A stretch of 37,899 nt of DNA, taken from the IMG/VR virus record IMGVR_UViG_3300035183_000627, positions 1 to 37,899 of that record. One strand, 5' to 3'. The position numbers and the translations under genes are program-made. A model generated the notes under the pieces. It was not told the DNA's origin. It saw nothing but the letters and a program-made list of their open reading frames with translations, and searched no databases. Source of the DNA: a virus. Numbering within the stretch: the first letter of the stretch is position 1; each line of letters begins with the position of its first letter. Of this stretch, positions 30,458 through 34,590 are shown piece by piece.

Positions 30458-30802
30458 TCAGCCCGTCCCCAGCAGCGTACCCTTGGCACGGTTCGCCACG
30501 TACAGGCCCAGCTCCACCACGATGTGCAGGATGTTCTTTTTCGGATCGGCGACGAACTGACGCACGACGTTGGCCGCAAGCTGCTGCTTGATCAGATTGT
30601 TCAGCGTCAGGTTTTTCAGCGTCGGATGCCGCTCGACGATAAACTCCCACGCCTCCAGGCTCTCCGGATCGTCTGCGCGGATCTCCGTATTCAGGTCGGC
30701 GCACTTGTCCACCACCTGATCGAACTCACCGCTCGTCAGGCCGGACACCGTCTTCGCCACGAAGACCAGGGCCGGTTTCAATACCATCCAAACGTTCAAC
30801 AT
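30458..30802 (-). CDS. First gene of the lysis/packaging block, membrane-anchored protein (114 aa)
   Basis: Two consecutive ATGs at 30805 and 30802; GGAGG lies five bases before the second, so 30802 is preferred. The N-terminus is hydrophobic (MLNVWMVLKPALVFVAKTVS) and the body is amphipathic and helical (VDKCADLNTEIRADDPESLE ... NLTLNNLIKQQLAANV). It lies three bases before the holin-like gene. It may be an antiholin or membrane accessory, but no family is recognised. It is the most upstream gene of the late block. Confidence 0.65.
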   Translation of the reverse strand: MLNVWMVLKPALVFVAKTVSGLTSGEFDQVVDKCADLNTEIRADDPESLEAWEFIVERHPTLKNLTLNNLIKQQLAANVVRQFVADPKKNILHIVVELGLYVANRAKGTLLGTG

Positions 30803-30904
30803 CATTTCCTCCGCGTAACAAAAATCCCGTCGGCCAGCGAATGATGCGCTTTCGCAAAAGCTATAGTCGGTTCCCCAGCCGCGCCTAGTCTGAACGATGT
30901 CCAG

Positions 30905-31100
30905 TCTAGAAAAAATCTAGCTCAAATGGGTGACGTTGCGCAACCCCATCTTTTAACATCATCCCCAGCCTGAAGACAGGGGATTAATACGGCGCTCAGG
31001 CGCGGCATTGAGCCGCCCTGAGTCGCTTCGGTGGGTTCCTGCTGCTGACGGCATTACCGCACCGTTCACTTCACAGGCTAACCGGGTGTGTCCCGCCCTT
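30905..31100 (+). ncRNA. Structured RNA resembling HEARO/omega-RNA (IscB guide RNA); no IscB gene
   Basis: No coding frame is supported here and several perfect stems run along the plus strand. CTAGA/TCTAG lies at 30906-30920. Next is GGGT/ACCC at 30928-30946, with the alternative palindrome GTTGCGCAAC at 30935. Then come ATCCCC (30961-30966) with GGGGAT (30979-30984), CTCAGG-c-GCGGC with GCCGC-CCTGAG (30995-31022), CGGTGGGT with ACCGCACCG (31029-31064), CGGG/CCCG at 31083-31095, and a possible long-range GGTTCCTG with CAGG..AACC (31034-31083). TACGGCGCTCAG and CCGTTCACTTCACAGG resemble, from recall, conserved blocks of HEARO RNAs, with the guide at the 5' end (about 30905-30927). That family call needs a covariance search. 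The next gene (31108) is on the other strand and there is no IscB. Orientation is inferred. Confidence 0.5.
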
Positions 31101-31107
31101 AAAATAG

Positions 31108-31434
31108 TCAATCATCCGGGTCCAGTCCCATATCACGCTTCATCTGGTTGAGCCCGGCCGGGTCGCTCATGTCGAAGTCGTTGCGGCGGATGGTATAGCT
31201 CGGCGCGGTGACATCCCGCAGGTTAGCGGATCCTGGCATCGTTCGGTAAATCGTTATGATGCCGCCGAGTTCCTGGATGGCGTAGCCGGGCTGGGTGGCG
31301 TCCTGAACAGAGCCGCCCGGGAGATTGGGTGTGATGTAGATCGTGTCGGCAATGGCCGGCGATGCCAGCGTCATCGCAAGAATTGCGACGGTATTCAGGA
31401 CGCAGCACGGGGTCATGGCGTAACTCATCTCCAT
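31108..31434 (-). CDS. Secreted small protein with signal peptide (108 aa)
   Basis: The ATG at 31434 has AGGAG seven bases upstream; a later in-frame ATG at 31416 starts MTPCCVLNTVAILAMTLASP and has no such site. Signal peptide: hydrophobic CVLNTVAILAMTLAS then cleavage-like PAIADT. The mature part is beta-rich (IYITPNLPGGSV) with a Tyr/Thr-rich middle and a charged, helical C-terminus ending DLGLDPDD-like. It overlaps the upstream 79-aa gene by 10 bp. Export to the periplasm or envelope suggests a host-surface or superinfection-exclusion role; that is inference. The structured RNA begins right behind its stop, convergent. Confidence 0.7.
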   Translation of the reverse strand: MEMSYAMTPCCVLNTVAILAMTLASPAIADTIYITPNLPGGSVQDATQPGYAIQELGGIITIYRTMPGSANLRDVTAPSYTIRRNDFDMSDPAGLNQMKRDMGLDPDD

Positions 31435-31676: not shown

Positions 31677-32525
31677 TCAATCGGATGCGCATGCGGCAAA
31701 CAGCCCGTTGTCGCCCTTCTCCCGGCGAAACCAGGCCGCGTGTTTGTGTCCGCCACCGCCGAATTGTTCGGCGATCTTTGCGACATCGAGGCCGTCCTGG
31801 GCGGAGCGCAGGGAGAAGTGGCGATAGGTGGGGCCGTCGTACCAGGTGACCGAGAAGGGCTCGCCCTGGCTCATGCGGTGTCCGGCTTCGCTGGCGTAGA
31901 TCGGGGGCAGATTGGCGCAGGGAACGTCGTAGCCGGCGATGCATGCGCGGGTCTGGGTAGCTTCGAGGAGCAGGGCGAGGTCGCGGTCGAACTCGCGATT
32001 GAGGACGCACCCTTCGGCTTCGAGTTCTTCGATGGGCATGCGCATGAGGTTGTCCCAGATGTAGAAATCGTAGGGATAGCTGAAGACGGCAGCCATGACG
32101 TTGCGGGTTTCTGGCAGGGCGAATGTACAGGTATCGCGGTCGCTGATGTAGTTGATCAGCGGCCAAGCAACCGTGTACACCGGGAAGTAATGCATCTTTG
32201 CCAGCAAAGCGCTGGATTTGTCTTCAGCTAGCAGGACCGATACCGGGCAGCCCTGACTTTCAAAGCCTTCAACCCATTCGAATGCGGTTTTGTGGTGGTC
32301 GATGATGAGGAGGGATTGTGCGACCTGGGTGATTTCGGACAGGGTTTCCGGAGGATAGCAGATGTCGACAAGGATGACGTGGCGGCCGGTGCAATCCGGC
32401 GGCGGTTCGTTATAGACGCCGGGGAAGAATTTGACGCGGTCGGCGCCAATGGCCCTGCGGACGACCCAGGCGGCGCCGAAGCCATCAGGACAGTTTTTGT
32501 GGTAAATGCAAAGAGTTGTTTTCAT
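31677..32525 (-). CDS. DHH/DHHA1-family phosphoesterase (282 aa)
   Basis: The start has an AAGGA-type site a few bases upstream (aaggaaacgca). DHH domain: His9, Asp14 (CIYHKNCPDGFGAAW), Asp54 (ILVDI) and the family DHH at 76-78 followed by K. DHHA1 substrate-binding end: GGGGHKH at 256-262. These are the metal ligands and substrate loop of Mn-dependent phosphodiesterases (nanoRNases, c-di-AMP or pNpN hydrolases). In the early operon the enzyme could recycle oligonucleotides or degrade cyclic-nucleotide alarm signals. Enzyme class confident; substrate not. Confidence 0.88.
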   Translation of the reverse strand: MKTTLCIYHKNCPDGFGAAWVVRRAIGADRVKFFPGVYNEPPPDCTGRHVILVDICYPPETLSEITQVAQSLLIIDHHKTAFEWVEGFESQGCPVSVLLAEDKSSALLAKMHYFPVYTVAWPLINYISDRDTCTFALPETRNVMAAVFSYPYDFYIWDNLMRMPIEELEAEGCVLNREFDRDLALLLEATQTRACIAGYDVPCANLPPIYASEAGHRMSQGEPFSVTWYDGPTYRHFSLRSAQDGLDVAKIAEQFGGGGHKHAAWFRREKGDNGLFAACASD

Positions 32526-32539
32526 TGCGTTTCCTTGGC

Positions 32540-33088
32540 TTATGCTATGTGGTTGGGGTTGAGGATGCCGGCGTGATCGAGCCAGGTGTCTATCTGCTGG
32601 AACAACTCAGCCAGGCTGCCGGTGTTGTGGAAAACCGGTTCGTTCTCGAGGGGAGGCACCCCCAGTTCGGAAACGTGGGGGCGGACGCCGTTGTCGGCGT
32701 GGCGGTCGAGGTGGATGAGATGGCCGCGGCGGCGTACCCAGTCCGCCTCGTTGCCGAATCGTACGTCGCTGATAACGATACGCTCTTCGGGGTCGGCATG
32801 GACGAGGGCGCGCTCCAGACGGTGGATCCAGATGTCCGGATGGATGAGCACGCGGCCCCATTCGGTACCGAGGGTTTGCATCAGCTCTCGGTAGGATGCG
32901 CCGATGCCGGGAATGACGGCTTCTTTTTCGTCGGTGCAGTAGCGAGTTTCGATGCCGAGCCCGGCTTGCAGCATGTCGCGGATCGGATCGGCGAAGGCGA
33001 GCTGATGAAAGCCGTGGACGTCGTAGAGGTATTTGGCGACGGTGTCTTTGCCGCTGCGGGCGCGGGCGGCGATGCCGAGAATAATCAT
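32540..33088 (-). CDS. Deoxynucleoside monophosphate kinase (182 aa)
   Basis: P-loop GIAARARSGKDTVAKYL at 5-21 with the phage dNMP-kinase style (G-x4-GKDT). Further conserved parts: FADPIRDMLQAGLG, MQTLGTEWGRVLIHPDIWI (substrate pocket), RIVISDVRFGNEADWVRRR, and a helical C-terminus. It phosphorylates dNMPs to dNDPs for phage DNA synthesis. AAGGAGA stands upstream of the ATG, and the start overlaps the preceding small gene by ATGA. This belongs to the T4 gp1-like/phage dNMP kinase family. Confidence 0.9.
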   Translation of the reverse strand: MIILGIAARARSGKDTVAKYLYDVHGFHQLAFADPIRDMLQAGLGIETRYCTDEKEAVIPGIGASYRELMQTLGTEWGRVLIHPDIWIHRLERALVHADPEERIVISDVRFGNEADWVRRRGHLIHLDRHADNGVRPHVSELGVPPLENEPVFHNTGSLAELFQQIDTWLDHAGILNPNHIA

Positions 33089-34518: not shown

Positions 34519-34590
34519 TTCGGAGTGGCGCCGTGGTAGCACGGCAGTGTCACAAGCTGCATGTCGCGGGTTCGATTCCCGCCTCCGCTT
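34519..34590 (+). tRNA. tRNA-like sequence, perhaps tRNA-Val(CAC), acceptor incomplete
   Basis: Cloverleaf of 72 bases: T-arm GCGGG-TTCGATT-CCCGC perfect, anticodon stem GCAGT/GCTGC with loop GTCACAA (anticodon CAC), variable loop ATGTC, D-arm region with GGTAG. The acceptor pairs in five of seven positions (CGGAG with CTCCG); the first two pairs do not match. No CCA is encoded. Either a degenerate tRNA or a tRNA-like element such as an attachment-site remnant. Confidence 0.5.

Follow-up and report, generated by a model that had tools for sequence, protein, structure and literature searches.

The gene-free block and its surroundings

The window, a stretch of 37,899 nucleotides covering the virus record IMGVR_UViG_3300035183_000627, contains a gap at positions 30806-31107 without a credible gene, flanked by the ORFs 30458-30805 and 31108-31434, both on the minus strand. 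The initial annotation had described here a structured block devoid of genes, and both points hold, the gap folding better than shuffled sequences on the plus strand (z = -2.66, 3 of 200 shuffles as good) and on the minus strand (z = -3.32, 0 of 200). The features located in and around the gap are the following:

30953-31106, minus strand: solo TnpB omega/reRNA scaffold and transposon right end (RE), identified by blastn, by aligning it with solo copies and complete tnpB elements, and by the consensus fold
31019-31117, minus strand: tblastn match (E = 6e-11) to the final ~30 TnpB codons (residues 367-399), without an open gene
30937-30952, minus strand: putative 16-nt guide AAGATGGGGTTGCGCA, phage DNA flanking the RE, positioned by homology with other copies, whose flanks are all different; the length is borrowed from ISDra2 (PMC10097598)
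31107-31111, minus strand: TTGAC left flank, target/TAM motif of the tnpB-element family, from the sequence and from TGAC/TTGAC found at left ends in both full elements and MITEs
30953-30956, minus strand: degenerate right cleavage motif TTAA, which is TCAA in a sister phage and in relatives

The scaffold has its 5' end at 31106 and its 3' end at 30953, where it terminates in ..GGGGATGATGTTAA, and it is co-directional with both neighbouring genes; the initial annotation had it opposed by the next gene. Upstream in the same minus-strand block lie a DHH phosphoesterase gene (31677-32525) and a deoxynucleoside monophosphate kinase gene (32540-33088). On the plus strand, the window also carries a tRNA-Val with anticodon CAC (34519-34590) and a C4 antisense RNA (RF01695, 34854-34939, 70.9 bits for a gathering threshold of 45), the kind of RNA that controls phage antirepressor genes. 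Just past the scaffold, a palindromic stretch (GTTGCGCAAC, CTAGAAAAAATCTAG) occupies positions 30890-30945; ~44 of its bases are identical in the sister phage, DNA farther out diverges, and the stretch is possibly a phage control site older than the insertion.

Family, strand and guide end of the RNA

We searched for homologs of the block. Positions ~30952-31104 matched 1407 plasmid records by blastn, the best matches sharing nearly the same start and end. In the annotated full elements (L004-L008), the match spanned the 3' end of an opposite-strand tnpB together with the right end, and this orientation places the window RNA on the minus strand and not on the strand first assumed. Positions 30953-31106 showed 78-93% identity to the tnpB 3' end and RE of elements with an intact tnpB from many Proteobacteria. 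The aligned scaffold comprised ~153 nt ending in GGGGAGGATGTCAA, and the sequence beyond was unrelated between copies, as expected if this flank is the guide. The consensus fold had 39 pairs, 11 of them with two-sided changes preserving the pairing, some pairs being broken in the window copy. The TnpB of the closest full element, L075, matched the ISDra2 TnpB structures with E = 7e-56. This homology identifies the feature as the omega/reRNA scaffold from a TnpB element of the IS200/IS605 type, with a putative role in binding and guiding. The guide of a TnpB omegaRNA is located at its 3' end (PMC10097598), and by homology to tnpB elements with such guides that of the window would lie 3' of the RE, from 30952 downwards, instead of at a 5' end at 30905-30927.

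The block had initially been assigned to the HEARO (IscB-type omegaRNA) family by resemblance. The HEARO covariance model RF02033, run against the whole record on both strands, gave no match at E<=10, and an Rfam scan of the gap gave no match at gathering level and, at E<=10, three matches in its vicinity that stayed below threshold and did not include HEARO. With this result and the clear homology to tnpB 3' ends, HEARO identity was rejected and retains practically no probability. The sequence blocks named in its support are present, and CCGTTCACTTCACAGGCTAACC, read as its reverse complement, corresponds to a part of the TnpB omegaRNA that is strongly conserved. What stood of the initial reading is an orphan OMEGA-type guide scaffold in a phage without its cognate nuclease; family, strand and guide end had to be changed.

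The phage copy lacks the left end and almost the whole of tnpB, the remnant of TnpB being limited to ~30 C-terminal codons. The phage encodes no TnpB, and no PF07282 domain was found in its record; no IscB/IsrB gene was noted among the part of its ORFs scanned against Pfam/PHROGs. The locus thus holds the tnpB 3' end and right end of such an element with no tnpB in cis. Among annotated phages, a 601-base query found no match, and the scaffold alone gave weak matches to insQ/IS605 features only.

One related phage, IMGVR_UViG_3300036768_001154, was 94% identical to the window over 5.3 kb around the feature and 96% over another 5.7 kb. The solo scaffold is present there too, at the identical position. 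The RE motifs that we examined, GAAT at the foot of the hairpin and the terminal TCAA, are canonical in this sister phage, whereas both are mutated in the window, to TAAT and TTAA. Further relatives and an insertion-free site were sought, also through the neighbouring genes, and the sister phage alone was found.

The left joint and a proposed cryptic right end within tnpB

In both phages the scaffold begins directly after TTGAC, the joint (^) being TTGAC^TGTGTAAGGG for the sister phage and TTGAC^TATTTTAAGGG for the window. TGAC/TTGAC is likewise found in front of the left ends in full elements and mini-elements. No left-end hairpin stands beside the phage scaffold, TTGAC adjoining it directly, so that it has only one of the two transposon ends of a MITE. 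At the corresponding position L075 reads CGCCGATGTGGTCGGCGCGATCAA^TGTGCTAAGGG, the breakpoint falling immediately after TCAA. Intact tnpB has there an internal mimic of the true RE: a hairpin, CGCCGA-N5-TCGGCG, followed by CGATCAA^, with GATCAA^TGT across the breakpoint. The true right end also terminates in TCAA, after a hairpin with a GAAT foot, and the right cleavage and guide motifs of IS608 are exactly TCAA and GAAT (PMC5934647). Of the 10 TCAA sites in L075, only 2 are closely preceded by a hairpin of 5 bp or more, namely the true RE and the internal breakpoint site. We did not retain a further possibility, that the copy is a mobile MITE of 153 bp bearing a left end of its own, because in intact tnpB TCAA stands exactly at the breakpoint.

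The exact TGAC joint recurs in two unrelated genomes. BMS3Bbin13 (L094) has the same breakpoint with the joint ATGAC^TGTTCTAAGGG, and it alone was returned by a class-wide sample of 369 genomes. The second, G473, from a sample of Massilia's order, has the joint GTTTTGAC^TGTTTTAAGGG in two contigs with identical flanks, counted as one event; it came from a search that named TTGAC and is a confirmed prediction rather than an unbiased sample. G473 also carries copies reading GATCAA^TGTTTTAAGG. We then inventoried the breakpoint in 11 genomes without naming the left partner, which serves in place of a scrambled-motif control. Among the copies whose flanks were read, the left partners were of the coding ATCAA/ATGAA type, were TTGAC/TGAC, or were the TGAG belonging to one MITE family, and the latter two were the sole non-coding ones. 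The exact pattern TGACTGTTNTAAGGG.. had no match in viral contigs.

BMS3Bbin13 contains 29 scaffold matches. In ~10 copies a common left end lies behind TGAC/TTGAC-like motifs and is followed by a short leader ending in TGAG and then by TGTTYTAAGGG.., each mini-element having its own, different guide. Of the two leader types, one still includes the start of tnpB. The loci L126, L128, L130-L132, L135, L136, L138-L140 and L148 had both a left and a right end together with a complete scaffold, but no nuclease. Many orphan guides and tnpB-containing copies can therefore coexist in one genome.

From the TTGAC^TGT joint lying exactly after the TCAA of intact tnpB, we infer that a TnpA-type excision ran from the left cleavage site to the cryptic right end. 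In the ancestor of both phages, an IS200/IS605-family tnpB element would have inserted 3' of TTGAC, at the stop of the gene at 31108; TnpA-type excision would then have joined the left flank TTGAC^ to the cryptic right end within tnpB, removing the left end and tnpB so that the guide RNA alone remained. In the window phage this copy would now be mostly unconstrained and decaying. Taken as a whole, we regard it as probable that the feature is such a 3' remnant of a tnpB element. The joint is supported by three events, of which that of BMS3Bbin13 was possibly derived from the MITEs of that genome, and the phage left motif overlaps a stop codon, the TGA of gene 31108-31434, and could have been present by chance.

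An ordinary random deletion, in which illegitimate recombination lost the left end and tnpB and the meeting of TTGAC with the TCAA breakpoint is coincidental, would be in line with other solo copies that show other breakpoints, namely L002, L088 and the second copy of L071. L071 itself, a viral contig of small size, carries this second solo scaffold (L071:3056-3208, minus strand) in addition to a complete tnpA/tnpB element; a TnpA of the IS200/IS605 type is encoded next to the L006 copy as well. Against random deletion stand the breakpoint exactly after TCAA, joined to TGAC on its left in three genomes, and its position at the only other RE-like site of the L075 element, and we consider it unlikely. 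Our literature search found no paper on excision at a cryptic RE yielding solo omegaRNAs; most subscription journals lay outside this search and absence is not implied. If the excision reading of the joint is true, it offers a concrete route by which TnpB guide RNAs are separated from their nuclease, a step towards guides acting in trans.

Probable decay of the window copy and possible use in trans

The scaffolds of the two phages were compared with the consensus of 26 non-phage copies. The window scaffold had 13 differences, 4 of them at invariant columns (alignment columns 19, 120, 148 and 154), and the sister scaffold had 7, with 1 at an invariant column. The ratio was 4:3 on the window lineage and 25:210 in the relatives (Fisher p = 0.005, to be taken as a rough guide, the columns having been counted after the alignment was seen and the relatives not being independent). 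In ISDra2, base -3 pairs in the pseudoknot (PMC10097598), and the corresponding base of the window is changed from C to U. Since the mutations affect invariant sites, both RE motifs included, we take the window copy to be, most likely, a relic in decay; that of the sister phage may still be able to serve a host TnpB.

Between the two phages the scaffold differs by 6.6%, compared with 15% at the fourfold sites of six neighbouring genes pooled and 23% in the downstream intergenic DNA. This low divergence leaves room for constraint. It may also be explained by local history, because the adjacent gene at 31108 is equally similar between the phages (95%).

Use of the window copy in trans by a host TnpB is putative. 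If it were active, read-through from gene 31108 would produce an RNA that a host TnpB would trim and bind, TnpB being known to process the 5' end of its RNA (PMC10278001) and the ISDra2 RNA being undetected without TnpB (PMC10097598). The guide would direct cutting of TTGAC followed by the guide sequence, the presumed insertion-free allele, in sibling phages, phage DNA lacking the insertion being its only target, and the carrier would be spared, its own guide-matching DNA being preceded by the right end and not by a TAM. Retention of the scaffold in both phages, co-directional with the operon, the canonical RE of the sister phage, a scaffold divergence below that of the pooled fourfold sites and the frequency of intact cognate tnpB elements in Proteobacteria are consistent with such a role. 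Against it, the guide start differs between the phages by run-length changes (AAAAAAGAGGGGGGGT in the sister phage, AAGATGGGGTTGCGCA in the window), the window copy is mutated at otherwise invariant sites, neither phage contains a TTGAC plus guide target and our search found no insertion-free phage. We give a functional trans guide little credence. The initial proposals of a borrowed host nuclease or of a decoy found no direct support, and the window copy looks decayed. Similarly doubtful is a generalisation by which TnpA excision at the cryptic RE, in the conserved zinc-finger-coding region of tnpB, would create stand-alone guides, and RNA-only loci, fixed in chromosomes, plasmids and phages, would act in trans with a resident TnpB against insertion-free siblings. 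Apart from these possibilities, the assignment accounts for a non-coding block that was puzzling, and it sets right the family, strand and guide end first given for it.

Among known systems, the feature resembles the TnpB omegaRNA/reRNA of IS200/IS605 elements (ISDra2-like; PMC10097598, PMC8612924), sharing a homologous scaffold that overlaps the tnpB 3' end and the RE, with the guide 3' of the RE; it differs in having neither tnpB nor a left end in cis and, in the window, in its mutated RE motifs. The MITE-like mini-elements of the BMS3Bbin13 family also combine scaffold and RE without a nuclease gene, and their scaffold begins at the tnpB position seen in the phage, but they have retained a left end, which is missing from the phage copy; the latter should be immobile. 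HEARO RNA (RF02033) also counts among the OMEGA guide RNAs associated with IS200/IS605-type elements, but it belongs to a different RNA family, whose covariance model did not match, and has its guide at the opposite end. The TldR-gRNA loci of prophages (PMC13418256) are, like this feature, phage-borne derivatives of a TnpB system, and the paper on them mentions that guides in trans may still come from a locus whose tldR is broken (PMC13418256); the phage feature differs from them in having no tldR or tnpB gene and no known target.
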